This document shows, in pieces, positions 6,084-51,580 of a stretch of DNA of 64,000 nt. The stretch comes from Branchiostoma floridae (lineage: Eukaryota > Chordata > Leptocardii > Amphioxiformes > Branchiostomatidae), in NCBI RefSeq assembly GCF_000003815.2, contig NC_049981.1, forward strand, positions 27,616,945-27,680,944. Reading direction: 5' to 3'. The notes beneath the pieces are model-generated. The model worked only from the letters and a program-made list of their open reading frames with translations, was not told the DNA's origin and did not search any database. How positions within the stretch are numbered: the first letter of the stretch is position 1; each line of letters starts with the position of its first letter. Made by a program: the position numbers and the translations under genes.

Positions 6084-9000
6084 ATGGCAGCACAGCACTG
6101 GGAGTTACTGGGGAAGCTTCGCCGTCAGATCACCGATCTAGAAAATGCCATATCTCGTATCAACTCCGTCAAGAGGAACCTGCAAGCAAACTCTGCGGAG
6201 GTGGGTAGTCAGTTGGACATAAAAAGAGGGTGTATTGAACTATGGTCACAGTGATCAAAATCAACCATGATATAGTACACGTACTTCCCATGGACTGATA
6301 TTTCTGTAAGTTGAAGGATTCCTAACGAGATGCTTTGCTGTGGTGCAATTGTGTATGATTGTAAAATTGTATGTGGAATACTGTATGATTGAGAAATGTT
6401 ACTCATACACACCACTGTCAATTGAGACCTTTCCTTGCTGTCATGCATATTGAATATAAAGAATTTGATATTATTTCATTCAAGCAAACAAAAAGTGAAC
6501 CGTCCATACAATTATCTGTCTGTATCTGTATCGATATAGCCAGTATGACTGCCCTTCGGCATAACACACCAGCTTCGCTGGCACGGGAGGCAGCAGCAGC
6601 TGGTTTCTTTACACTGAACGGCTTGTCACACATAACCTTTGCTCATCTGACTGCAAATGTTGTTTGTAGCTATCTAATACGGATGTACCTACTGCACTTG
6701 AAAGCAACGAATTCCTCTCATATATATATAGTTCTAGGAAGCAACGAGAAACAAGTAAAAGTGTATAAAGTGAAACAGAAATTCACGTAAGATATTTGTT
6801 TGTGTGTGTCCCCCCAGGTGAAGTCGCAGGTGCATGCTGCTATCAGTCGTCAGCTGGAGGCCCTGCGCAGCCGCGAGGTGTGGCTGCTGAACCAGGTGGA
6901 GACTCTCCAGCATGCTAAGGAGGACATCTTACACGGGCAGCAGACACAGCTCAGTGAGGTAGGCAACTTCACATCTTACATGGGCAGCAGACACAGCTCA
7001 GTGAGGTAGGCAACTTCACATCTTACATGGGCAGCAGACACAGCTCAGTGAGGTAGGCAACTTCACATCTTACACGGGCAGCAGACACAGCTCAGTGAGG
7101 TAGGCAACTTCACAACTTACATGGGCAGCAGACACAGCTCAGTGAGGTAGGCAACTTCACATCTTACACGGGCAGCAGACACAGCTCAGTGAGGTAGGCA
7201 ACTTCACATCTTACACGGGCAGCAGACACAGCTCAGTGAGGCAGGCAACTTCACATCTTACATGGGCAGCAGACACAGCTCAGTGAGGTAGGCAACTTCA
7301 CATCTTACATGGGCAGCAGACACAGCTCAGTGAGGTAGGCAACTTCACATCTTACATGGGCAGCAGACACAGCTCAGTGAGGTAGGCAACTTCACATCTT
7401 ACAGTTACATGGGTAGCAGACACAGCTCAGTGAGGTAGGCAACTTCACATCTTACATGGGCAGCAGACACAGCTCAGTGAGTATAGGCAACTTCACATCT
7501 TACATGGGCAGCAGACACAGCTCAGTGAGGTAGGCAACTTCACATCTTACATGGGCAGCAGACACAGCTCAGTGAGGTAGGCAACTTCACATCTTACAGT
7601 TACATGGGTAGCAGACACAGCTCAGTGAGGTAGGCAACTTCACATCTTACATGGGCAGCAGACACAGCTCAGTGAGGTAGGCAACTTCAGCAGTCAAGGA
7701 ATAGTTAGTCACTCACAGGAAGAATAGCTGCAATGTTAAGTTGCATTTGTCAAAGTAATTGTGGATTGTGACAAACTCAGCTCGTGTACAAGTCTAAATA
7801 TAAGTCAAATAATCTACACCGCAGTAGGTGTAAAGGAGATTTATGGAGAATGGAATAAGAATGTATTCAGAATTTATTTTGATTTTTGGTTAAGGATTTT
7901 GCAGTAGTCATGATCATTGAATCAATAACAGCAAGCAAAAATCAACATGCACTTATATTTGTGTACCCAGAATAGGACTGGTGCATGCAGACTTCTGAAA
8001 TACACTGTACTGCACAGCTCCAATTTGACCTGCACTAACCTGCATACTACTTGTAGTTGTTAAAGTCTACGCAATCTCGACAGTAGCCTTTGCTATATCC
8101 TTTCAACATTCTGTGCCAGTCTGCATGTCTATATGCAGGTTTTATTTGGCAGCATGTATACTGAAATGAAACCAGAAAAAGACACTAATGACATGATCCT
8201 GTCTCCCTCCAGGCCCTTGGCGAGGCTCGTAACTGTGCCGACCATGTGGAGGGCTGTCTGCGTGGGGACCAGGAGGAGAACTGTGACTCCGCCTGCATCG
8301 AGAGAGTCCTCGCAGAGAATCTCAACAAGTAAAGGAGACATTTGTTTTACTATAATTGCAGCATTTTTACATTATCCTATATACAGAGCGTTGCCCTCAG
8401 GCCATGCAGTATACCCTAGGGAGAATATGCTAAACACAGCTAAGGTTTCCACTTTTGTGGATATGGCCTCTACCCAGCTGTCAGCCAATCAGAGAATCAA
8501 GTGTACCTAAGGAAAAAATTTAGGTACTTTCTTGATTGGCTAACAGCTGGTTAAAGGCCACATCCAACCACAAGAGTGGAAACCTCAGCTCTGTTAAGTA
8601 TATGTATGGGCTGCAGGGAGGCTCTGCATAAGAGAATGTATTTTTATTCAATGAAGACACAGTATATTTAATAATATCCATGAGATCTTGTTTAAGGTTT
8701 CTCTCTTTCCTTGAATAAGACTATCTGCAGCTCAATGTGCGATGCTTCCCTGTAGACTTTCATCCCTGAATGCTTATGAATAAGAGGGTCTAGAATGGAA
8801 GAACTGTACAACATGGAAACTAAGTTGCAACTGTCGATTCTAATATATAAGAATACAGTGCCTGTAAAGGAAAAAATAGAACTCGACATGTATTTATTTG
8901 CTGATAATCAGTGTACATGTTTCTGTTGCTATAAGTGTTATCTGCCCTCTTAGGCTAAAGGATTTGAACATGGAGCCAGAGGAGACCTCCTGCGTAGAAT

Positions 9001-12000
9001 TCTCTGCAGATACGAGCTCCCTGCGTGAGTCCATTCACCGCTTCGGGCGCGTGGACTGTAAGAACCCACGAGCCGAGGACCTGGTCTTCAGTACTGCTGG
9101 TAAGTCCTTTCCTACTGGTTTCCCTCCTGGCTGTGCCTTGCTGCCAAGTTTATGGTGAAAGGCCCCCATACATGTTCTTACTTGATGCATATTTATCAGC
9201 CTTGTTTTGTCACGTTTCATGTATTTTTTTTCCTTCATGCCATCTATCATTTCCATGTTTGTCATTGAGCTGAAAAGCTACACTTCCATATCTCGTGTTC
9301 TGCACATGTTAGTCATGATTTTTGAGTGGTAGATAGCACTTAGAAGGGAGAGTAAGGCGTGTTATTTTTTTGTCCCCGAGTTGTCTTATGTGATACATGA
9401 TGATAACCATTAGGCAGTATTCTTTCAGCTTAGCCAATCGCAAGTTGTTTACATTTTGGAACTACAAGATTTTTTCTGTAAATTGCAGGTTGCAACTGTG
9501 TTAAATTCTAGTGTGATTGCTTAGCAGTTCCCAGACAAAGGTGCAATAGTTTTTTACCTGAACAACAATGTTTGGCATTCTGTGGTGACTCTATCTGTCC
9601 CCTGCAGGCCTGAAGGCTGCCAGTCTGCCCTCCCTGTTTGAGGAGTACGGAGACCAGGAGCACCATGTGTTGTACAAGACTGTGGAGGACGCACGTCGGC
9701 AGCAGGGCCAGGAGGTGGTGCACCAGGTGGGCTTCTGGAGATAGCTAGAAAAAAAATTAGATTCCCCTAGTTACCTGTGGCATCAAATTCAGAAGAAGTT
9801 TATGACATTGTTTATCTATCAATCTTTAGGTGTTGTCCCATCAGTTTGTAGATGAGTGCCCCTTTTGTACAACCATTACAAAAATGTCAACATACAAAAA
9901 GAAACACTCCGCCAACATAGAATTAGCATACAAAATAAGAATGATAGCAAAGAAATGGCTTGACATGATGCAGTGCTTGTTTCCATTGACATTATCATTG
10001 GAATGTTTTCTACCAGCTGAATTGTAAGATAAGAAGATTATGTATATAACATGATTGATTGCTCTATACGAAATGTAAAACATCTTTGTTGTATGTTTGA
10101 AGGCGCCGCTCCCAGACCTTAGGAAGGAAGACTGGCTGGCCCGAGGACCAATCACAACACAGCCGCAGAGGAGCAGCGAGCAGGACGGCGCTTCTTTCCG
10201 CCCCAGGTTCGGCTCCCTGGGGAAAGTGAACATCTCCACTGCGCCCATGTGCATCCAGGATTGGCTGCTGCAGATCCGCCACGAGGACGGGAACGGGAGC
10301 CACGGCACGTCCATGGAGGAAGACGGAGATTTCGTCATGCTGGACGGGAAGATCTCGTGCTCCCAGTCTGCACCATCGGAGGCACAGGAGTCCATCGAGA
10401 TGATCGGCACTCCCGACATTCTGGAGCAGTCCGACTGGCTGGCGAGAGACGACAAGACTTCAGACAGGCCTTACACCGAGTTTCCTTACTTTGAGGAGAT
10501 CAAGGAGATGAAGGATTGGATCTTGAGGTACGAGGAAGGAGTCAAGTCTTCTAGCTGCTGCTGCGCTCCAGAGGCCTCCGATGGTGCCATGGAGATAGAG
10601 AACCTCGGCCAGCTGTCCTGCAAGAAGGGGTCCATCCACAAGTACTTCCGTGACGTCCCTTCTGCCAAGGAGGCTTGGCTGATGAAGCACGCTCCTCAGG
10701 ACGTCCAGTCCCTCTGCCGTGCCAACGAGGTGTGCCCGTCCTTCAGCGACTGTGTGTGCGACCTGAACTGCCAGCAGCAGGCTCCTAACGACACCGAGCA
10801 TCTCCACCAGTATTTCAAGCTTGCTTCCAGCAAGGTTACCGACTGGCTGATGAAACCCAAGAACCCGTCCCTCCAGAAGGAGTTGGATGAATCACCTATC
10901 TTCACCTACTTCCGCACTGTGATCTCCGACCCTGTCTATTGGCTTGCTGCAGGAGGGCAAAAGGCCGCCTCCGAGCCCCCAAAGCCGTCCCCATTTGACG
11001 GTGCCTTTGCTGCTATTACAGCCCAACCCTGTAGCTACTGGCTGGCCCACCGCGGAGAGTCGAAGATGACCAAGGAGTGCCCGTATCACATCATTTCGGA
11101 GGGATTCTCCCTGAAGGATGAAGGCACAAAGCACTGGCTGCTTCCTATGGAGGGCAAGGAAGAAGACTCAACTCTCAGCCCACTCATCGCCTGTGTTGTT
11201 GATGGCTTCAAGCAGATCGAATCTCAGCCACAGAGTGTTTGGCTGGCAAAGGAATGTCCAGCTAGTCAGGTTCAACCACCCAACAAACCACAGGTCCAGG
11301 CAGGAGAGGGAGATGCAGTACAGTTTGTCTTAGATGGTTTGCAGCAGCTGCTCATTCAGCCAAAAGAGGCCTGGCTGTCACGCCCAGCTAAAGAGGAAGG
11401 CAGCACCCATGGAAGTGCAATCAGCAACAAGGGATGGCTGCACAGGGGAAGGGAAGAACACCCGCATACAGAAACTGCAAGTATGGCAACAGAGAAAGAG
11501 CTCGGGTATGATCCTGAAAATGCAGCAGTCCAGATGGCACTGGGGGGCCTGGAGCAGTTTATGACCCTCGGCAAAGAGGCGTGGCTGGACAGAGGGGCGG
11601 CCAAACCAGCAGTAGAGAAAGACGAGACCATGACAACTGATGCAGACAACAGTACAGAAGAGGAACTCGGATATAACCCAAACAATCCAGCTGTGCAATC
11701 CGTCCTGGGAGGTCTCAAGCAGTTTGAGGCACTCGGGAAAGAGGCATGGCTGAGGAGGGCCACCCCTCCAACCGAGACCAAGAAAGCCAGCTGCTCCACC
11801 AAGGTGGAGAAGATCATGAAGGAGGTGGAAGAAAAGGTGCAAGACGACTACGACCCTGAAAATGAGATGGTGAAGGTCGTTCTGCAGGGGTTCGAACGTA
11901 TCCATGCCAAAAGGAAGGAGGAATGGTTGGACAGGGGCGACCGGGAGGCGACCAAGAAGAGCAAAGCAGGGCCATCAGACACGTCCTCTGGCAAGTCTCC

Positions 12001-13384
12001 CTGGCTGCTACACCAGAAGGATGAGGCGAGTGTCCAGTCAAACAGTGATGCAGTGAAATTTGTCCTGGGTGGAGTCAGCCAGATCCACAACATGGACAAC
12101 AAATGCTGGCTGGACAGGTGAGTGACTCGTGTGCAAGAGATAGAAATACAATGTATAAAACAGAGTGAACTGATAAAAACGGTGTAAGAGAGGTTGGATT
12201 GTGAGAGACTTGTGTGCCTTCCTTTCCCAAGTTTCAAAAATATATGGCCTTCATCGGTCAACATTGACCATTGACACATCCTAATTGACATCAGTCCTAC
12301 AGCATAGGAATTGGCTAAACAGGTTATTCTGAATGACACAGTTTCAAAGAGCTCTGCTGAAAAATCGAGGTTTCAAAAAGCCAACTTGCTTATAAGTCTG
12401 CATTTTAAAACAAATAAACTGAATGAACTAGCACAGGAGTTAGTTAATTGTTAAATGATTATTGCTGCTCCATGCAAGTGTGTACATGTAGAAAACTACA
12501 TGTTCCGTAAGCCTGTATTATTTACCTTTCCCCAGGAGTGGAGAGTCCCAGCAGCCTGTTGTGAAGAACTCCTGGATGTGGAGGGGTGACCAGGACCTGG
12601 CCCAATGGCTCGCTAAACCTGCCAGCAAGGTGAGGGTTGTACCATGTCTTCTACATTAGAGCTTGAAACATTGTGTGCATATGCACTTTTCTGTACGCCA
12701 ATTAGAGCTGTGTGCCAAATTTAAGTCTGTAGGTGCACCATAGATATTAGCGTTTCGTTACATATATAAATGTACTACAAGTGTACAGCATATCCTTGAT
12801 ACTTAAGTGTCAGAAAATTATGAACCCAATGAAATCAAATTCAAAATAATATCTCTAACTTTCACTTGACTCTTGAGCTCAGATTCAAGTTCAATTGACC
12901 TCTGAACAGAGACAGTAACATTAGATTTTGGTGACATTGTACTTCATGTTATGTTAGTGCTCCAAACTTTTTTTCTGGGTAGATGCACCAGTGCACCTAT
13001 TTTCAAATATGAATTTCAACACAAGTACATGGATATGGGTATTGTGTCTATTGGCAACAGTTGACCTACCAAATTAACTGCTTTTATGGTCATATATCAG
13101 ATGTCCTTAAATGCTCCTTTTTGTAGTTTATATTCTCAGTTGGTTAAAAAGGACACCATTTGTTCTGTTCCTGTGTAGACAAATTTGTTTTCATTGTGAA
13201 GCTTTGTTCCTTGACATACAGCATATCAAGCTTACCGTATATTCTCGAATAAAGTACGCACTTTTTTAACTTTTCAAAATTGAAAAGGTGCTACAAGTTG
13301 TTGCCAAAGTTGGGGTGCGTACTTTATTTGAGAATATACGGTACTCCAATTGTGAGTCATTGTTATATTTCCTCTCCACAGTAG
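6084..13384 (+). CDS. NCOA4: Nuclear receptor coactivator 4 (ferritinophagy receptor), eight coding exons plus a stop-codon exon
   Basis: NCOA4 binds ferritin heavy chain and delivers ferritin to autophagosomes and lysosomes for iron release; it was first described as the androgen-receptor coactivator ARA70. Exons: 6067-6200 (ATG 6084), 6818-6958, 8213-8328, 8954-9099, 9608-9726, 10103-12117, 12536-12629, and a last exon starting at 13382 directly with TAG. All have AG/GT borders and their phases agree, giving 916 residues against 614 in human. Exons 2-6 encode the coiled-coil ARA70 region; RSREVWL in exon 3 is shared with human. The 2-kb exon holds the Trp-Leu motifs, a cysteine cluster shared with human and repeated ferritin-binding-like modules. 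The extra length comes mainly from these repeats. MAAQHWELL is the first in-frame Met after the exon 2 acceptor; an upstream start at 2392 is possible. Gene identity is close to certain. Confidence 0.93.
6935..7690 (+). repeat. Junction-spanning minisatellite, about 16 copies of a 47-bp unit
   Basis: The genuine 3' end of NCOA4 exon 3 (GGGCAGCAGACACAGCTCAG, then TGAG|GTAGGC) is the first unit. It is repeated about 15 more times into the intron, each copy carrying both the exon end and its GT donor. Two units have a 6-base insertion (CAGTTA-type), one reads GTGAGTATAGG, and one has GT changed to GC (about 7240). The unit is not a multiple of three, and reading on past the true donor meets TAG in the second unit. 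The copies are therefore decoys rather than exons. Confidence 0.9.
8384..8626. mobile_element. Foldback MITE in NCOA4 intron
   Basis: An imperfect inverted repeat. CAGAGCGTTGCCCTCAGG at the left mirrors GCTGCAGGGAGGCTCTG at the right. GCTAAGGTTTCCAC mirrors GTGGAAACCTCAGC, and TTGGCTAACAGCTGG mirrors CCAGCTGTCAGCCAA. There is no coding content, so it is a small non-autonomous DNA transposon. Confidence 0.6.
10103..12117 (+). CDS. NCOA4: NCOA4 large exon with Trp-Leu motif array
   Basis: This single exon encodes protein residues 214-884. It contains 17 W-L/W-I motifs (DWLARG, DWLLQI, AWLMKH, YWLAHRG, VWLAKE, AWLDRG, EWLDRG and others). At least seven have a large hydrophobic residue exactly eight positions before the Trp, preceded by a short amphipathic stretch. 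Examples are DGFKQIESQPQSVWL, GLEQFMTLGKEAWL, GFERIHAKRKEEWL and GVSQIHNMDNKCWL. In human NCOA4 the pair I489/W497, also eight apart, is required for FTH1 binding. A cysteine cluster C-x5-C-x5-C-x-C-x3-C (residues 418-436) matches the human cluster in sequence and spacing. Several modules also share an ELGY(D/N)P lead, showing recent internal tandem duplication. Confidence 0.85.
13233..13343. mobile_element. MITE, TACCGTATATTCTCG inverted repeats
   Basis: Terminal inverted repeats TACCGTATATTCTCGAATAA and its near-perfect complement close a 111-bp hairpin-forming element flanked by TA. It ends about 40 bases before the acceptor of the NCOA4 terminal exon, so it sits in the branch-point neighbourhood. 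Confidence 0.75.
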
Positions 13385-15214: not shown

Positions 15215-16178
15215 TCTCGATCCGACTTCTGTCCATTCATTATAGGACAGGTCTAACTGGTTTGGAAATTACTGGTATTTCAAAACAGACCACCTGCACC
15301 CGCACCACAAGATGATGATCCCCTCACCCTAGTGCCTGAGTCCTCAACCAAATGAGGTTTGGCACTTACATGAAGAAGACGAGCCTACACCACCTAGCAA
15401 AAACCATCGCCATCCAACCAGCGAACTTGACATATATAACCCGATGCATCATCCCTACCTGAAACAGTACCTCCATACACACATCATTCACGAACGGGTA
15501 AGCAGTATAACTGTGCCAGTGATCATGACAATGGAAGATAGGTGGGAGTCGTGGGACCTATGTCCCATTGTCGTCATTACTTCTCTAGTAATAATGCACA
15601 CACGAGGGATGAAAGATCATTAATCTTCCATACTTGACACCTTTGAGTCCGCACTGTTCACTGTGACATCAAGCTGAATATATCTAGTCTTATAGACGTG
15701 ACGTCTCCCCGGACAACACTGTTCACTAAGTGTAAGCCCCCACCGTCAAAAGTGCACTCTCATCCCAACTGGTGACTACTGCGCCTGTCGCACTCGTTCG
15801 TCGTAGGACATGTACTGGTTTACAACAAATTGTGAACATTCTTAGGACAGTCGCGGTTGTTTCGCGCGAAATTCACCTGTCTTTGTTTGTGACGGAAAAC
15901 ATTGTCGAAGATCATTGTTGGCGCTCGATTCTAGATCTGTGGCAATCTCGTGACGCATATAGCATGTCCGGTTCTAGGGCCTGGTCTTTCAATGTCGGCA
16001 AATCCTGCTACCCAGCTCTGAACGTGCATCTTGTAATGATCGTCACAAGCTCATGTGCGTCAATGGGGCTCCTTCAGGTACATTTGTCCTTTTGATTCGA
16101 CTTCTGCCCAAGTCGCATTCATTGTAGGACAGGTCTAACTGGTCTAAATACTGCTATTTCAAAACAGACCACCACAAG
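15215..16178 (+). repeat. Direct duplication immediately upstream of the fucosyltransferase
   Basis: A block of about 80 bases containing TCATTATAGGACAGGTCTAA and TTTCAAAACAGACCACC (about 15218-15298) recurs at about 16090-16175 with small changes, ending 11 bases before the FUT start codon. The second copy is therefore the FUT 5' leader, and the first may be an older leader or promoter copy. No coding frame joins them. Confidence 0.6.
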
Positions 16179-16186
16179 AAGGCACG

Positions 16187-17536
16187 ATGGCAAGAGGGAA
16201 GTTAGCAGACTTATTGTTCCTAGTGTGTCTCCTTATAGGTGTTATCAGTGTCGTTCAGTTTATTTTCATACCTAAGATGCAGTCGAGTACAGAGGACGTC
16301 CACAGGTACCGCGGCCGTTGGTTTGACACCGAGAAGACGGGAAAGGTGCCTTTCGGACCAATCAAAACTCTAAACACTTCCGACTTAGACACACGCTCCA
16401 GCGCTGTCGGCTTCGCCTACCCCGCGTCCGAGTTTTTCACCGTCTGGCACGAGGACAGCGTCCCAAGAGTTAACGGTAAACTGCGAGAGAAGAAGAAAAT
16501 CGTGGTGTGGGGTGACGGTGAGGAGTGGGACGAGACTATTTCATCTCCCTGTCGCCCTGACGTACCTCCCTGCGACATAACACTAGACACCGGGCAAAGC
16601 GAGGGTGCGGATGCTGTTGTCTTCTACTACAGTCGTACGCCTAACGTCTTCAACAGTCGTTCCATGCCCAAACGGTACCCGCACCAATACTGGATCTTCT
16701 TCTCAGACGAAGCACCACTCTATCCCGCCATGCGTGCCCACGACTTTGCATCTTACAACGGCGTCTTCAACATGACCATGACTTACAGGCTAGATTCGGA
16801 CGTCCCAGCCCTGTACGGATCCACTGCTATCGTCCATAACAAACTTAACGGAAAGGACAGACGTCACAGTGAGGAAGACTACTCTGTCGGAAAAAAGGGT
16901 CTTGCAGTCTGGTTCGTGAGTAATTGCTATAAGTACTTACCCAGGTTCGCCTTTGCGAAGGAACTTTTGAAGCACATGGACCTGGATATATTCGGTAAGT
17001 GCGGGAAGGACATAGTGTGTCCGGAGAAGGGCTACGACTGCTCGGACAGTATCATCAAGCAGTACAAGTTTTATCTCGCGTTCGAAAGCTACCATTGCAG
17101 GGAATATATAACCGAGAAGTTCTGGAGGAATGCCCTGGAGAACGAAGCAGTTCCCATTGTGTTGGGGCCACCGAAATGCGACTACGAACAGATAGCTCCC
17201 CCTAACTCCTTTATCCATGTGGACGACTTTGAGTCGCCCGAGGATCTTGCAGCTTACTTGAAGAGACTTGACAAGGACAAAGAGCTGTACAACCAATACT
17301 TAAAATGGAGGGCGTTACCGATACCCACCGAAAGCATCTTCAGCGACTTTGGAAGTGCCTGGTGCCGTCTGTGTAAGAAACTGCATGATGTGGACACGAC
17401 TGAGAGAAAAGTGTACACTGACATTGACGGATGGCTGAAGGGAAAAAATAACGAGAAGTGTGAGCCCGTCATATTTCTGGACTATACTGACCCAAGAAAT
17501 AATGTGCGTTTTGGATATAATTTCACTCCTCTGTAG
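16187..17536 (+). CDS. Alpha-1,3-fucosyltransferase, GT10 family, intronless
   Basis: A single 449-codon frame encodes a Golgi type II membrane enzyme that transfers fucose from GDP-fucose to N-acetyllactosamine-type glycans. Residues 1-7 are the cytosolic tail, and about 8-28 (LLFLVCLLIGVISVVQFIF) the signal anchor. A stem follows, then the catalytic domain. The GT10 signature lies near residues 292-330: FYLAFES..CREYITEKFWRNAL..AVPIVLGP, where the Y-I-T-E-K block contributes to GDP-fucose binding. N-glycosylation sequons are visible near residues 63 (NTS), 195 (NMT) and 446 (NFT). GEEWDE and YPHQYWIFFSDEAP match the family's N-terminal half. Length and lack of introns are typical of chordate FUTs. 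The specific subfamily cannot be assigned by eye. The start is the first ATG of the frame and precedes the anchor directly. Confidence 0.9.
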   Translation: MARGKLADLLFLVCLLIGVISVVQFIFIPKMQSSTEDVHRYRGRWFDTEKTGKVPFGPIKTLNTSDLDTRSSAVGFAYPASEFFTVWHEDSVPRVNGKLREKKKIVVWGDGEEWDETISSPCRPDVPPCDITLDTGQSEGADAVVFYYSRTPNVFNSRSMPKRYPHQYWIFFSDEAPLYPAMRAHDFASYNGVFNMTMTYRLDSDVPALYGSTAIVHNKLNGKDRRHSEEDYSVGKKGLAVWFVSNCYKYLPRFAFAKELLKHMDLDIFGKCGKDIVCPEKGYDCSDSIIKQYKFYLAFESYHCREYITEKFWRNALENEAVPIVLGPPKCDYEQIAPPNSFIHVDDFESPEDLAAYLKRLDKDKELYNQYLKWRALPIPTESIFSDFGSAWCRLCKKLHDVDTTERKVYTDIDGWLKGKNNEKCEPVIFLDYTDPRNNVRFGYNFTPL

Positions 17537-18394: not shown

Positions 18395-18585
18395 TAGCGA
18401 GTGTCGGATTAGCACTAGCGAGTAACCCAACGACCAGGGAGAGTCGATCCCTGGCCGCGCGGAAGGGTATGAGTTTATATGCTTTAGGCTCATATAAAGA
18501 ACCCACTAGGCCGTGGCTCGCCGAGTGAATATTGGCACGCAATCAGCCTATGTAGCTCTACCTGACGTCACGCCCGATGACGTCA
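18395..18585 (-). mobile_element. tRNA-derived SINE, copy 1 (degenerate)
   Basis: On the minus strand GGCGAGCCACGGCCTAGTGGG carries a degraded polymerase III A box. About 50 bases later GGGATCGACTCTCC is a degraded B box. It shares the GAGCCTAAAGCAT centre, the TCGGATTAGC-type end and the upstream GGCACGCA...CAGCCTAT block with the copy at 19165-19345. It is a SINE remnant, not a tRNA gene. Confidence 0.65.
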
Positions 18586-25297: not shown

Positions 25298-25967
25298 TAC
25301 TATATTCTTCTTGCTTTTCTGCATAATGAATTGGAACAAGAAGTGTTTATCCATCTGAAGAAATTTAGAAAATTGAAATTTTATAGAAAATTTTTACGCA
25401 GTCAAACGAAAAACACCGTCAGATGCTATCATTGAAAAGGCTGAAGTACATTTAGAGAATTATATAAACTTACTGACATATGAAGGTATATCAATACATT
25501 TGGATTCAATATTTCCAAAACATGTAACGTTACGCCTAGTTTATGTATGCCTAGGCTACTTCTACTCTACTTAAGACTTGCTGTGAAATCTGTGTTTAGT
25601 TGTCCCCAAATCAGTTAACGGTGACTACAGGAATGTGGCCAGGGGCTTGTTGCTCTCATTGCCTCTGTGCGCTTCAAAATAATTCATAATAACAGACACA
25701 CAAAAGTGCCTCTCCAACAATTCACAATTTTTCAATCAACAACATGATTTAATCAATCTGGAAGAAAAAGACTTTTGAGATGGTGTTTTACTCCCCTGAG
25801 TTGTCAGGCTGTGCTTGGGCACCGACGGACTGCCCGAAAAAAAGTAAGCAGGGTGTGTGCGTCTGCGTCTGAGAATGGATTAAACTTGTTTTAATAAATA
25901 TTTTGGAAGACTGTTGGTTTTGATTTTCCCCAATCATGTGAAAAATTAAGTCGTCATAAAAGCTTAC

Positions 25968-26645
25968 TTTTCTCCTGGATCGTGATCGGCCCTCCATCTG
26001 CAGTGTCCTGGTGCACTGGTCCACACACTGGGCGAACTCCAGACTGGCCCTGTGTCTGCTGTAGTCCTGCCCGTTCAGACAGGCCAGGGCCGTGATATAA
26101 CTACAGGCCACACGTAAGATAGCTAGCTTGGAGAGTTTCTGGTTGTACGAGTAAGAAGGGACCGCTCGCCGTAGACTCTCGAACGCCGCACTGATGGTAT
26201 GCACCCGGCTGCGCTCTCTGGCGTTCGCTACGATTCTCTTGTCCCTGGTGAGAGTTTTGTAGGGCCTGCCTCTCTGTCTGGACGAGGGGGAAGTCGACAC
26301 AGACCAGGGCACGGGAGAGGGAGGATAAACGTCCGCCGAGGAGAAGGAGAACCTCTCGGTAGGCCCCTCCAGTCGAGACACCAGTGTGAAGTGTTGATCT
26401 GTTCTGTCAGCTGTTGCGTGCTCGCCTCCAAGCATGGCGTTGTCGACAGGCGCGACTTGCAGACGGGCATCTTCCTCCGAGTCGGATTCCTTCGGTCGCT
26501 TGGTCAATTTTCGAGGTTCCCGAGCCTTTCTCTTGTTTCTCCGAGGTGGCCTGGCATCTCGTTCGGGCACAGGAGCCGCCCCCACCCGAGATAAATTCCT
26601 GTCGGGCTCGTCAGGCTGCTCACAGGTGTAGCTCGGGCTTGCCAT
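25968..26645 (-). CDS. ATOH8: ATOH8/Net-type bHLH transcription factor, first coding exon
   Basis: This exon encodes the DNA-binding and dimerisation region of an atonal-superfamily bHLH factor. It has 226 codons from ATG 26645 to a donor AGGAGAAAA|GTAAGC (GT at 25967-25966). An Arg/Lys-rich low-complexity N-terminus (PPRRNKRKAREPRKLTKRPK near residues 33-52) may carry the nuclear signal. The bHLH spans roughly residues 130-190: basic region NARERSRVHTISAAF, loop SYSYNQ, helix 2 KLSKLAILRVACSYI. The post-helix block ECV/QCV..CTRTLQ.EGR is diagnostic of ATOH8 and Drosophila Net. In vertebrates only a few residues follow this splice site, so the missing last coding exon is probably tiny. I could not place it downstream. 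ATG 26645 is the first Met in the frame, about 60 bases from the inferred transcription start. Confidence 0.88.
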
Positions 26646-26730
26646 CCCGCCCGCAATGTGCAATGAGGGCTGGTCGTCAGTGAGCCTTCGCTGGCGAGGA
26701 CCTCCCAACTCCAGATGTGAATGTTCAAGA

Positions 26731-26737
26731 ATTTATA
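26731..26737 (-). promoter_or_regulatory. ATOH8: TATA box of the ATOH8-type gene
   Basis: The minus strand reads AAATATAAATTC, placing transcription start near 26703-26708 and leaving a short leader before ATG 26645. E-boxes of type CAGGTG/CACCTG lie further upstream (about 26905, 27063, 27140). Confidence 0.45.
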
Positions 26738-46506: not shown

Positions 46507-46653
46507 GGCATCACGGGAGTAGGTCGTGTCGTGTCTGAGCTCGCTCCCGACTGAGTACAATTTTTTGGTGGTAATTTGAGCCTGTTATTGTTACAACTTT
46601 CTCCCACATACATTCTTAAAGTATTACTGGTGACCGTCCCAACATTCGACACG

Positions 46654-47433
46654 ATGACTACCCGGCAGAAACGTCTAGCTTCGACGAAAGGACATGACTC
46701 TGCTGGAGACAAAGAAGACAAACATGGCGGCGACACGGAGGCGTCTTCATCGGAATTCGAGACCTTCGTGCGCGACCAACTCCAGAGGATTTTGGACGGA
46801 CAGAGGGTGCTACATGAAGAGGTGAGATCCTTGGAGGAAAACCTAGAAAAAAATGTCCAAATGCTAGAGTCACGAATGGAGAAAGTTGAAAAGAGAACGA
46901 CCGAGATACAAAAAAATGTGAAAGAATCTGCGCGCGAAACCTCTGATCAGATTAAGTCGCACACCGACAAAATGAAGATTATGGAAGAGAATCTGGCAGA
47001 GCTGAAACACAAGTGCAACAAGTTAGAGAGATTCTCCCGCAGAAATAATATCAGAATAATCGGTCGCAAAGTTGGAAAAGGTGAAAACTGCATCTCTACT
47101 GTAGACAAGATTTTCCATGAGAAGTTCGGCCTTACACATGTGAAAATCGAACGAGCCCATCCCGACGGACCGACCAAGAACAGCCCAGATGGTACCCCTC
47201 AACACATCCTGGTCAAGTTAAACAGCTATCAAGATAAAGTCAGTATCATGAAAGTGGCAAGAACTAAGCTGAAAGCCGAAAACTTCTTCTTCACGGATGA
47301 CCTCACAGGTGCTGATCTGCAAGAAAAACGTAAGTGGCGGGAAAATGTCAAACAGGCGTACGAACAGGGGGTGAAATACCGGTTCTACAATGGATATTGG
47401 AGAGATGGGAAAGGAAAACCAGTGACTTTCTAA
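46654..47433 (+). CDS. LINE ORF1 protein (L1-type RNA chaperone)
   Basis: 259 residues from MTTRQKRL. A charged N-terminus is followed by a long coiled coil (about residues 45-125, rich in E, K and L heptads, LEENLEKNVQMLESRMEKVE). An RRM-like core follows, marked by RRNNIRIIG, the hallmark of L1 ORF1 proteins. The C-terminal domain includes VKIERAHPDGP and ends KPVTF. In the family, trimers of ORF1p coat the element RNA and act as nucleic-acid chaperones during reverse transcription. ATG 46654 is preferred over the in-frame ATG 46576 because the upstream stretch is hydrophobic and unlike the family. ORF2 follows after an intergenic gap of about 330 bases. Confidence 0.85.
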   Translation: MTTRQKRLASTKGHDSAGDKEDKHGGDTEASSSEFETFVRDQLQRILDGQRVLHEEVRSLEENLEKNVQMLESRMEKVEKRTTEIQKNVKESARETSDQIKSHTDKMKIMEENLAELKHKCNKLERFSRRNNIRIIGRKVGKGENCISTVDKIFHEKFGLTHVKIERAHPDGPTKNSPDGTPQHILVKLNSYQDKVSIMKVARTKLKAENFFFTDDLTGADLQEKRKWRENVKQAYEQGVKYRFYNGYWRDGKGKPVTF

Positions 47434-47764
47434 AGGTTACATGACATTGTCCTGATAAGACATTTATTCCCACTACTCGCTTCAAACTTAATTATACTTT
47501 GGCTCCTAAGCTTAACTACACGGGGAGCAAAATCCTACTGAACTGTTCATCATGTTAGACCGTGATTTGCCGATATTGTTTATGTTGTTTGTAGAATTTC
47601 TTCTTTTTGTGTCAGTAATTGTTACTATGTTTGCAAGTGTACAATTATGTCTGGAATCCCATCCACCTGCTGGTTCCAAGCCCACTATTGTTATTCATGA
47701 GTCCACCTGGCGAGCCAAATCTCCATATCAAAGACTGGCACATTCTCGTCAAAATTCCAATTGA

Positions 47765-50700
47765 TACCATTTCTACTCCCTTTCCTTCCCGCCTCAAAGT
47801 AAGCTTTCGGTAGCTAGTTTCAATTGTAATGGCTTAGGAAAGAAAGAAAAAAGACGGGAAATCTTTACCTTTTTGAAGGACAAACCGTATTCAGTTTTAT
47901 GCCTACAAGAAACTCATTCCAGTGAAGAGCGGGAAAAGGAATGGATTGCAGATTGGGATGGACAGATTTTGTTTAGTCATGGAAGGGAAAATAGTTGCGG
48001 GGTTTTGGTATTATTTAAAAATGATTTGTCTTTTCAGATAAATGAAGTCAAAAAAGATAATGAAGGAAGATTCATTATATTAGATTTGACTGTTGGTAAA
48101 CTTCGTATCTGCTTAATTAATATATACGCACCAAACAAAGACGACAAAGTCTATTTTGAGAATGTGGAAAGAAATATCCAGACAATGGTAAATTGTAACG
48201 ATAATGTAGTATTGACCGGTGACTTTAATACTGTTTTTGATGTAAGTAAAGACAGAGCTGGCCAACAGCCAGTTAACTATCATCCACATGCTACCCAGGC
48301 ACTCTTGGAACTTTCTGATACACTTGATTTAGTAGATATTTGGCGATTGAAAAACCCTGAAACTATACGTTATACGTGGCGAAGAAACAAACAAGCCAGT
48401 CGCCTAGACTACTTTTTGATTTCATTCTCGTTAATAACAAAGGTTACAAATACCTCGATTGAGTACGGCTTAAGATCGGACCATTCTCTAATTGGCATTT
48501 CTGTGGTAACGTCTGAAATACCAAGAGGGCCTGGCTTTTGGAAATTCAATCAAGAACTTTTAGATGATCCAACATTTTTTAAGGAGATCTCTAGCTTTAT
48601 TTCAGAATTCTTTTTGTTTAATAATGGCTCAGCCAATCCTCACATGGTATGGGAATCGTTCAAGTGCGCCGTGCGCGGTCAGATAATTAGATATTCGTCT
48701 TGGAAACGGAAACAAAGTAAAAAGTCTGAATCACTCCTTACCAGTGAGATCGACAGCCTGCAGAAAATATTAGACGCATCCCCAGATAGTGACACCTTTC
48801 ATAAATTACAAAGGAAAAAATATGAACTAGAATTAATTTACCAAGCAAAAGCTAATAATTTAATCGCAAACAGAAGAGCCAAATTTATGGAGCAGGGGGA
48901 GAAATGTACTAAATTTTTCATGAACTTAGTTAGTAGGGGTCATGCAAGGAAAAACATGACAACACTTGTGAATTCAGATGGATTGATCTTCACGGAGCCT
49001 CAAAACATTCTGCAGGAGCAAGTAAAATTCTATGCTAACCTTTATGCGTTTGAAAATTCTCCCATGTCTTTAGACAGTGATGTATTCTTACCCTTTTTTC
49101 CAAAAGCGGCCCCCATCTTATCATCTGGCCAATGTAGCAGTTGTGAAGGTCCGATAACAGAAAAGGAATTGAAATTAGCTGTCGAATCTTTTTCCAGTGG
49201 AAAGTCTCCAGGTCTTGACGGACTCCCTACTGATTTTTATAAGACCTTTTTTAACATCTTAAAACAACCAATGCTAGACTCATTCAATTACTCATTTCAG
49301 GTGGGGCATCTGTCTGAGTCCCAAAAAATTGGTCTCATTTCTCAAATTCTTAAACAGGACCCAACTGGGCAAGATAAAAACCCCACTAGTATGAAAAACT
49401 GGCGACCCATAACATTGTTAAATTGTGACACCAGAATTTTATCAAAGTGCATTGCCTTGCGTATGAAAAATGTAATCTCAAGCCTTGTCTCATACGATCA
49501 GACAGGATTTTTACAAGGACGTAATATAAGTGACAATATACGAAAAATATTAGAAATCATAGAATATTATGATCTTAACGAAAAGCCAGGCTTGATTTTT
49601 ATTGCGGATTTCCAGAAAGCTTTTGATAAAATAAGACAAGACTTCATTCTCAAAGTGTTAAGATTTTTTGGATTTGGAGAATCCTTCCTGAATTGGATAA
49701 AGATTTTATATAAAAGTGCTGTTAGTAAAGTAATTAACTATGGGTATATCTCTGAATCATTCCCCCTCACCCGTGGAGTTCGCCAGGGCTGCCCACTTTC
49801 TCCTTATCTCTTTATTTTAGGTGCTGAAATACTAGCAATCAAAATCAGAAGTAACAACGAAATAAAGGGTTTAAATATTCATGGCATCGAAACAAAAATC
49901 TCTCAATATGCAGACGATTCCAACTTTCCACTCGCTGCAACACTTGGCTCTCTGCACGCCCTTACCGGCGATTTAGATCTCTTTGCGTTGCTATCTGGCC
50001 TAGTTCCTAACTTTGACAAGTGTGCTGTACTTCGTATTGGCTCCCTAAAATATACAGACTTCTATTTACCCTCTCCTCTGCCCATACGATGGACAGATGG
50101 ACCTACAGAAGTTTTAGGTATCCATATTCCTGTAAACTTTAAAGATATTGTGTCAATCAATTTTGACCGAAAATATATGAAAATAGATAAAATTTTGAAT
50201 CCCTGGAAAGAAAAAGGACTATCACTTATGGGGAAAGTCACTCTGGTAAATACACTTATAGTTTCACAGTTTATATTTTTATTAAGTTCGCTCCCGTCTC
50301 CATCGTCAGCTTTTTTCGACAAATATGAAAAAAAGATTTTCAAGTTTTTATGGCGTGACGGACCCGAGCGAGTTAAGCGAAAGACAATATATAATGATTA
50401 TGATCAAGGTGGATTAAAACTTCAAAATCTGCGAGCTGTCGATCTCAAACTGAAGGCCGCTCTAGTGCCAAAACTGCACAAAAACGAAAACTGGTTTTGT
50501 TCTAAATTATTGTCCTTCTCTAGTCCTGTTCTTAGAACCAGTACGTTTCCTTTTGCACAGCTTAAAACGAATGACTTTGAAATCTTGATTAAGAAAGTAG
50601 TCAGTCTGTTTTTTCGACAAGTTATACAAAGTTGGTTGAAGTACCAACTACGCCCCCCAGAAAATAGCATACAAGTCAAACAGCAACTCCTTTGCTTGAA

Positions 50701-51580
50701 TTCACATATTTGTATAAATAGGCGACCCTTTTGTTCCTCAGCCTTCTTCAATAAAAAAGTACTTTTTGTAAATGACATTATTGATGCTGAGAATAATTTT
50801 TTGTCTTTTGACAGCTTTGTAGTCAAATTTGGAGATGTCTGTACAGCTTATCAGTATCATCAACTTTTGTCAGCTATTCCTCCTCAATGGAAACATATTC
50901 TAAGACAAGGCTCCTCAGAGCTACGTGTTTGCATCCCTGCCTGTAGAGATGTAACCTGGCTACATAGTAAAAATATTAATAAATGCTTATATGCTTTCTA
51001 CATGAATGAAGCCAGATTATGTGAAACTTCAGACAGGATACAGTACACGTGGGAAGATTATTTCAACTGTCCAATACCATGGCAAAAGGTTTATAGCCTA
51101 CCTTACAAAATTTCCATTGACTCTAGTGTTTGCATGTTTCAACATAAACTATTATTCAAATACTTGACCGTGAACAAGACCTTATACATTTGGGGTTTGA
51201 AGGAGTCGCCCTTATGTGAATATTGTAATGAAGATGAAGAAACAGTCTTCCATCTCTTTTTTCATTGTAGAGTTGCTACACGTTTCTGGATGCAAGTAGA
51301 AGACTGGTTTTTCGTCAATACTGGGGAACATTTAAATCTAAACCTGTTTAAAGTTATCTTTGGTGATTTGAATTGTCGGTGCCCAGTTTCTGCCAATATG
51401 ATTATCCTTCTTGGCAAACACTTTATTTTCAAGAACCGTCAACGCTCTCTTAATTTACAAGCCTTTATTTCATATATGTCATACTTCCATAGGCTAGAAT
51501 ATATTATAGCAAAAAGGATGGATAAGATAAAAGAACACTTTGGTAAATGGGGGAAAATAGCTTTATCGTTAAAACAGTGA
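47765..51580 (+). CDS. LINE ORF2 protein: endonuclease and reverse transcriptase
   Basis: The open frame runs from after TGA 47762-47764 to TGA at 51578. The AP-like endonuclease comes first: SFNCNGLG, LQETHS, NIYAPNKDD, VLTGDFN, RLDYFLI and LRSDHSLI supply the catalytic Asn, Glu, Asp and His. The reverse transcriptase follows with FIADFQKAFD (motif A), GVRQGCPLSPYLF and the QYADDSNF active site. Near the C-terminus CEYCNEDEE..HLFFHC is the zinc-knuckle type common in Tx1-like L1 elements. It nicks target DNA and primes cDNA synthesis on it. No ATG precedes the endonuclease core in this frame: the first upstream ATG (47552) is separated by the TGA. Either initiation is unusual or the 5' end is mutated. 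Confidence 0.88.
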   Translation, partial: YHFYSLSFPPQSKLSVASFNCNGLGKKEKRREIFTFLKDKPYSVLCLQETHSSEEREKEWIADWDGQILFSHGRENSCGVLVLFKNDLSFQINEVKKDNEGRFIILDLTVGKLRICLINIYAPNKDDKVYFENVERNIQTMVNCNDNVVLTGDFNTVFDVSKDRAGQQPVNYHPHATQALLELSDTLDLVDIWRLKNPETIRYTWRRNKQASRLDYFLISFSLITKVTNTSIEYGLRSDHSLIGISVVTSEIPRGPGFWKFNQELLDDPTFFKEISSFISEFFLFNNGSANPHMVWESFKCAVRGQIIRYSSWKRKQSKKSESLLTSEIDSLQKILDASPDSDTFHKLQRKKYELELIYQAKANNLIANRRAKFMEQGEKCTKFFMNLVSRGHARKNMTTLVNSDGLIFTEPQNILQEQVKFYANLYAFENSPMSLDSDVFLPFFPKAAPILSSGQCSSCEGPITEKELKLAVESFSSGKSPGLDGLPTDFYKTFFNILKQPMLDSFNYSFQVGHLSESQKIGLISQILKQDPTGQDKNPTSMKNWRPITLLNCDTRILSKCIALRMKNVISSLVSYDQTGFLQGRNISDNIRKILEIIEYYDLNEKPGLIFIADFQKAFDKIRQDFILKVLRFFGFGESFLNWIKILYKSAVSKVINYGYISESFPLTRGVRQGCPLSPYLFILGAEILAIKIRSNNEIKGLNIHGIETKISQYADDSNFPLAATLGSLHALTGDLDLFALLSGLVPNFDKCAVLRIGSLKYTDFYLPSPLPIRWTDGPTEVLGIHIPVNFKDIVSINFDRKYMKIDKILNPWKEKGLSLMGKVTLVNTLIVSQFIFLLSSLPSPSSAFFDKYEKKIFKFLWRDGPERVKRKTIYNDYDQGGLKLQNLRAVDLKLKAALVPKLHKNENWFCSKLLSFSSPVLRTSTFPFAQLKTNDFEILIKKVVSLFFRQVIQSWLKYQLRPPENSIQVKQQLLCLNSHICINRRPFCSSAFFNKKVLFVNDIIDAENNFLSFDSFVVKFGDVCTAYQYHQLLSAIPPQWKHILRQGSSELRVCIPACRDVTWLHSKNINKCLYAFYMNEARLCETSDRIQYTWEDYFNCPIPWQKVYSLPYKISIDSSVCMFQHKLLFKYLTVNKTLYIWGLKESPLCEYCNEDEETVFHLFFHCRVATRFWMQVEDWFFVNTGEHLNLNLFKVIFGDLNCRCPVSANMIILLGKHFIFKNRQRSLNLQAFISYMSYFHRLEYIIAKRMDKIKEHFGKWGKIALSLKQ

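Follow-up and report, generated by a model that had tools for sequence, protein, structure and literature searches.

The window examined here, a 64,000-nucleotide stretch of the Branchiostoma floridae genome (contig NC_049981.1, positions 27,616,945 to 27,680,944), carries on its forward strand an eight-exon gene, the predicted product of which is orthologous to NCOA4, the receptor for ferritin in autophagy. The exon model was fitted by eye from open frames and splice sites, and all seven predicted introns follow the GT-AG rule. Exon 6, which bears the array of tryptophan-leucine modules described below, has a single match in the amphioxus genome (513 Mb, 431 contigs). The spliced protein matches the Pfam ARA70 family (PF12489) with an E value of 3.9e-12 (46.8 bits, cut-off 23.6), and its Ile48 and Leu55 align with the human self-association residues I56 and L63; matches to the Pfam family zf-CCCH_RBM22 (E 0.021 and 0.011), far under the cut-off of that family, were disregarded. 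A 47-bp minisatellite (6924-7689; 16 copies, 94 percent matches) has as its unit the final part of NCOA4 exon 2 together with its splice donor, and the string formed by the exon end and the donor occurs within it in 14 exact copies.

For comparison, a reconstructed human NCOA4 sequence was used; it has the published length of 614 residues (PMC4592949) and agrees at 18 of 18 residues given in PMC10831263, PMC11076521, PMC9452830 and PMC4592949. Global alignment of the two proteins scored 432, as against -4 +/- 24 in 200 shuffles (maximum 65.5). Whichever of the four gap settings is used, five cysteines align with human C404, C410, C416, C418 and C422. At three of the settings, human W69 and W227 to W430 face amphioxus tryptophans in order; at the fourth W304 faces no tryptophan, and W204 finds one at none. 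Past human W430 the pairing varies with the gap penalties, with W497 facing W593 at two settings and W637 at the other two. As judged from these alignments, the amphioxus protein is collinear with human NCOA4 up to the iron-sulfur (Fe-S) cysteine motif, and it is C-terminal of this motif that copy number differs: the FTH1-binding element of human lies on that side in one copy, and the candidate modules of amphioxus lie there in seven or eight (Table 1).

Table 1. Predicted amphioxus NCOA4 gene, its exons and its tryptophan-leucine modules, in coordinates of the window; modules are named after their tryptophan
Feature	Position	Strand	Basis or remark
NCOA4 gene, 8 exons, predicted protein 916 aa	6084-13384	+	single spliced frame
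Exon 1, start codon at 6084	6084..6200	+	gene model with GT donor
Exon 2, core of the ARA70 coiled coil	6818..6958	+	Pfam PF12489, E 4.5e-8 for 6818-6925
Exon 3	8213..8328	+	GT-AG, frame kept
Exon 4	8954..9099	+	GT-AG, frame kept; ARA70 match extends to residue 147
Exon 5	9608..9726	+	GT-AG, frame kept
Exon 6, module-bearing	10103..12117	+	one open frame; 17/17 Trp in W-L or W-I
Fe-S cysteine motif	10715..10771	+	PDB 9l93_C NCOA4 match, E 2.6e-5
Module W461, Y-x2-L at -11/-8	10796..10855	+	meets rule, not profile
Module W526, F-x2-I-x3-P-x3-W-L	10991..11050	+	exact match to human 486-498
Module W593, F-x2-I-x3-P-x3-W-L	11192..11251	+	exact match to human
Module W637, L-x2-L-x3-P-x3-W-L	11324..11383	+	
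Module W707, L-x2-F-x3-G-x3-W-L	11534..11593	+	
Module W762	11699..11758	+	nearest duplicate of W707
Module W821, F-x2-I ... W-L	11876..11935	+	
Module W882, V-x2-I ... W-L	12059..12117	+	Arg codon finished in exon 7
Exon 7, holds final W-L (W909)	12536..12629	+	gene model
Exon 8, stop codon	13382..13384	+	gene model

The first-pass annotation of this region had placed at 10750..12117 an array of at least seven ferritin-binding-like modules, each defined by a hydrophobic residue eight positions ahead of a Trp-Leu (W-L) pair. That interval does hold the modules, and the four strings quoted for them fall in one open frame (exon 10103-12117), but the run of exon 6 tryptophans followed by Leu or Ile begins at 10133 and is cut by those coordinates. 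The W-L pair itself was rejected as a sign of ferritin binding, being common to the whole NCOA4 family and hence insufficient as the mark of a module: W-[LIV] accounts for 19 of 22 tryptophans in the whole amphioxus protein and for 13 of 14 in the human sequence. Tryptophans within 20 residues of the N-terminus (there is one, W6, which is not W-[LIV]) were omitted from the site counts.

The hydrophobic residues ahead of the pair are distinctive. Under a rule requiring a residue of the set FILMVY at both -11 and -8 relative to the tryptophan, eight modules are found (W codons at 10844, 11039, 11240, 11372, 11582, 11747, 11924 and 12107), that is, 8 of the 19 amphioxus W-[LIV] sites versus 1 of 13 in human. 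Permutation yields a mean of 0.9 such sites and reaches eight in 0 of 20,000 trials, a figure that is too favorable because the modules share ancestry, and the rule holds at only 1 of 54 x-Leu anchors lacking the tryptophan. Third of all offset pairs in the amphioxus protein is -11/-8; the two ahead of it, -14/-11 and -14/-8, share its helical face. The linkers between array modules span 24-50 residues. We take the array proper to comprise about seven modules (W526, W593, W637, W707, W762, W821 and W882), with W461, which adjoins the cysteine motif more closely than the others and scores -19.1 in the profile described below, as a weak candidate for an eighth. A single-sequence fold model predicts helix over the -11 position in all eight; this proves little, as the model is poor (mean pLDDT, the predicted local distance difference test score, 39.6) and helices span 43 percent of it. 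The hydrophobic moment of the modules, ranging from the 36th to the 92nd percentile, is mixed and indecisive.

In human NCOA4, F486, I489 and W497 occupy three pockets of FTH1 as seen by cryo-electron microscopy, P493 runs over FTH1 R23, FTH1 F82 and R80 hold I499, and S485 bonds D90 (PMC11076521); counted from the tryptophan, these residues stand at -11 (F486), -8 (I489), -4 (P493), +2 (I499) and -12 (S485). The human fragment 383-522 binds FTH1 with a Kd of 2.4 uM, through contacts on one subunit (PMC11076521). When the W-L modules are aligned with this segment, W526 and W593 share with human 484-499 (PDB 8QU9, PMC11076521) the Phe at -11, the Ile at -8, the Pro at -4 and the W-L pair, whereas four array modules carry Leu or Val at -11 and two carry Phe at -8.

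The likeness extends to the array as a family. A profile of six modules (W593, W637, W707, W762, W821 and W882), with the W and L columns omitted, assigns 4.2 bits to human W497, which ranks first among the 13 human W-L sites (second, -13.1) and first among 594 human positions (second, 1.3), while the maximum on four other proteins of the window is 0. Each of the six modules is recovered by the profile of the other five, a result equaled in 0 of 5,000 shuffles, and W526, held out of the profile, scores -2.5, the best among the 13 W-L sites that did not go into it. With W593 removed, W497 still heads the 13 W-L sites and comes third among 595 positions, at 1.3 bits with controls up to 0.9. Searches of PDB chains of 20 residues or more returned no match with a single module and one chance match with the module profile (E 1.6), no NCOA4-ferritin chain being among the results, and a scan of viral contigs found no relatives.

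Several observations weigh against equating the whole array with the human element. In a profile of the last four modules, W497 leads the 13 W-L sites yet stands 11th of 595 at -4.3, where controls score as much as 2.2; in one of W707 and W762 it drops to third among the W-L sites and to 137th of 595. When only the left-hand columns are used, four profile variants rank W497 2nd, 5th, 23rd and 246th of 595, with controls equal or higher; among the 13 W-L sites it leads in the first three variants and is not one of the best three in the last. Except in the full six- and five-module profiles, control frames from the window match or beat the score of W497. Human S485, S492, L494 and I499 are each kept in none of the seven array modules and P493 in three, position +2 being Ala, Ser, Asp or Arg in all seven and position -12 Ala or Gly in all seven. 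The interpretation offered at first pass is thus partly supported. The array as a family resembles the human element by degrees, mainly through W593, W637 and W526 and not through its closest duplicates.

This uneven likeness is what would be expected if W526, W593 or both bound ferritin and the rest were duplication relics or spacers, with the helix-plus-W-L shape and an affinity too low to matter. Among array modules the full F, I, P, W and L set occurs only in those two, the last four have no Pro at -4 and carry Asp or Arg at +2, and the resemblance to W497 fades in profiles built on the last modules. Relics long free of constraint would not be expected, however, to be found each by the profile of the other five, nor to show the substitution pattern of the most similar repeat units given below, and we regard this explanation as unlikely.

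The modules might also bind one another or some different partner, their likeness reflecting a general W-L helix of the NCOA4 family. The W-L pair, in many cases accompanied by a basic residue at +3, does occur throughout amphioxus and human NCOA4, also at sites that are not known to contact ferritin, and the module pattern aligns partly with human W606 and W559; yet the six-module profile sets W497 apart from the 12 other human W-L sites by 17 bits. One known partner, HERC2, binds human NCOA4 unchanged when I489 and W497 are mutated (PMC4592949), from which it follows that HERC2 does not use the FTH1-binding element. We consider this explanation very unlikely. A CUL7/HERC2-type domain match is present in the amphioxus genome. 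In human, the C-terminal W-L stretch at W606 aligns partly with an amphioxus module but has a shorter run of residues ahead of its tryptophan; it is possibly a degenerate second module. As viewed from the one genome examined, module copies may have been gained in amphioxus or lost in vertebrates, and the partial alignment of W606 would fit loss from a larger ancestral set.

The history of the repeats was assessed at the DNA level. The last modules had been taken for tandem duplicates, which is clear in the protein, where the W707 and W762 modules are identical at 14 of 20 residues, but the duplication is old: direct DNA repeats in the module region do not exceed 16 nt, and synonymous sites between modules are near saturation. 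Over the 34 codons of the W707 and W762 repeat units, the proportion of synonymous differences (pS) is 0.74 and that of nonsynonymous differences (pN) 0.20, and pS exceeds pN in all 15 pairs of 20-codon modules, two of which count against constraint in that the excess is slight (0.47 versus 0.40 and 0.50 versus 0.48). On these short and saturated data, the modules read as an old duplication under purifying selection. A recent tandem duplication or an assembly artefact was rejected in view of the diverged DNA copies, the near-saturated synonymous sites and the single genomic match.

To act in ferritin capture, the modules would need a partner. The amphioxus genome contains ferritin matches at six loci (L001 to L006; matches with E above 1e-3 were not used), which we compared at 11 interface residues with a reconstructed human FTH1 sequence that agrees with 11 of 11 published residues. 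The L001 ferritin keeps 8 of the 11 (changed: R23K, F82V and K87Q), and the other loci keep 5/11 (L005), 4 of 9 covered (L003), 5/8 (L006), 3/6 (L004) and 2/8 (L002). By residue, A19 and N22 are each kept in all four matches covering them, L27 in 4/5, Y30 in 3/5, R80 in 5/6 and S114 in 2/4. Less favorable to a conserved interface, R23 is kept in none of the four matches covering it (Lys in L001, L003, L005 and L006), F82 in none of the six loci (Val or Ile), K87 in 2/6, D90 in 1/5 and V111 in 2/4. The docking cleft is thus reasonably well preserved in one ferritin and degraded in others, with two of its key walls altered throughout. The change at position 23 counts against docking, since FTH1 R23A shows no NCOA4 binding (PMC11076521). 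R23L shows no binding by isothermal titration calorimetry, 86 percent by immunoprecipitation and 33.7 percent colocalisation (PMC11076521), R23K is not among the FTH1 mutants given there, and the authors regard the aliphatic stem as the main contribution of R23 (PMC11076521). A lysine at this position would retain an aliphatic stem like that of Arg23. The absence of I499 from the modules matches the loss of its partner F82, which may reflect co-evolution or chance. No iron-responsive element was found at gathering score in the window or in the six ferritin loci (about 1.5 kb on each side of the match).

The F-x2-I core of the human element has a second reported function, left unconsidered at first pass: 485-SFQVI-489 binds the Atg8 family member GATE16, with little strength on its own but avidly when combined with 413-FAECV (PMC12872393). 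The amphioxus protein has F-S-D-C-V at the site of 413-FAECV, and as the counterpart of 485-SFQVI-489 F-x2-I stands in register at three array modules, with Y-x2-L at W461, so that [FWY]-x2-[LIV] occurs at -11/-8 in four of the eight modules (W461, W526, W593 and W821). Unlike the human motifs, W707 and W762 carry the Atg8-type match three residues later (FMTL and FEAL at -8/-5), and W637 and W882 carry none. The array might therefore consist chiefly of LC3-interacting region (LIR) motifs binding Atg8/GABARAP proteins, giving avidity to the autophagosome and not to ferritin. The six modules with a match, in register or shifted, would suit such an array, as would the coincidence of the human FTH1- and GATE16-binding residues; the whole protein holds 15 matches to the pattern, where shuffles give 9.9 and 15 is attained in 4.9 percent of 2,000, and Atg8 family matches are present in the genome. 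A LIR, however, has no need of the W-L pair that all eight modules keep eight residues past position -8, including those in which the Atg8-type match is lacking or displaced, and this makes docking to ferritin more plausible than an array for Atg8 alone. Each module has no more than one acidic residue in the six positions ahead of -11, and the Atg8-type match is missing or out of register in four of them. The module tryptophans themselves were rejected as LIRs, [LIV] standing at +3 in none of the 19 W-[LIV] sites. Altogether, an array devoted chiefly to Atg8 proteins seems quite unlikely.

As F486 and I489 sit in the ferritin pockets and also belong to the GATE16 motif, one copy could hardly serve both partners simultaneously. 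A divided labor among the modules can be envisaged, in which W637 and W882 would bind ferritin only, W526, W593 and W821 could bind ferritin and Atg8 by turns, and W707 and W762 would carry an Atg8-type match beside the ferritin register, the receptor clamping ferritin multivalently while tethering it to the membrane; in this full form we hold the arrangement to be unlikely.

Taken together, these data lead us to lean, by somewhat more than even chances, towards a C-terminal array of about seven modules of the human FTH1-docking kind in amphioxus NCOA4, which could provide a multivalent grip on ferritin that would raise avidity and favor condensates. Each module would fold into a short helix on binding ferritin, with the hydrophobic residues at -11 and -8 and the tryptophan entering three neighboring pockets of one ferritin subunit; W526, W593 and W637 are the likeliest binders. 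The N-terminal coiled coil would double the array, so that each dimer would present 14 to 16 candidate sites and might engage more than one subunit of the same cage or link separate cages. Such multivalence could turn weak sites into strong cage capture, and we infer from the sequence that more than one module may bind at once, with a corresponding effect on avidity and condensates. In human cells condensates require both NCOA4 self-interaction and FTH1 binding, and I56E or L63R leaves no FTH1 puncta (PMC9452830). The amphioxus protein resembles the human one in possessing the coiled coil, with the equivalents of I56 and L63 still Ile and Leu, and would differ in that its valence would stem from repeated docking modules in addition to dimerisation.

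Human ferritin condensates are explained by self-interaction and one micromolar site. If several amphioxus modules bind, this receptor could be used to ask whether the valence of docking governs how condensates form and how ferritin is turned over. Variants of its array might also tell ferritin docking apart from the binding of Atg8, two functions that share one motif in human. A literature search that included Branchiostoma and invertebrate ferritinophagy and covered titles and the starts of abstracts found no account of an NCOA4 array like this one among the matches listed, with most subscription journals, bioRxiv preprints and the supplementary orthologue alignment of PMC12872393 outside its scope.

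Elsewhere, the window holds a single-frame glycosyltransferase family 10 (fucosyltransferase) gene at 16148-17536 (PF00852, E 3.5e-59) and, on the reverse strand, a basic helix-loop-helix gene at 25788-26732 (PF00010, E 9.1e-17) and a match to the Rfam mir-4867 precursor at 18492-18564 (93.7 bits versus a gathering score of 93). A long interspersed nuclear element at 46555-51580 has both of its frames open, with a coiled-coil-like ORF1 (open reading frame 1) and an ORF2 of 1271 aa comprising endonuclease, reverse transcriptase and zf-RVT domains.

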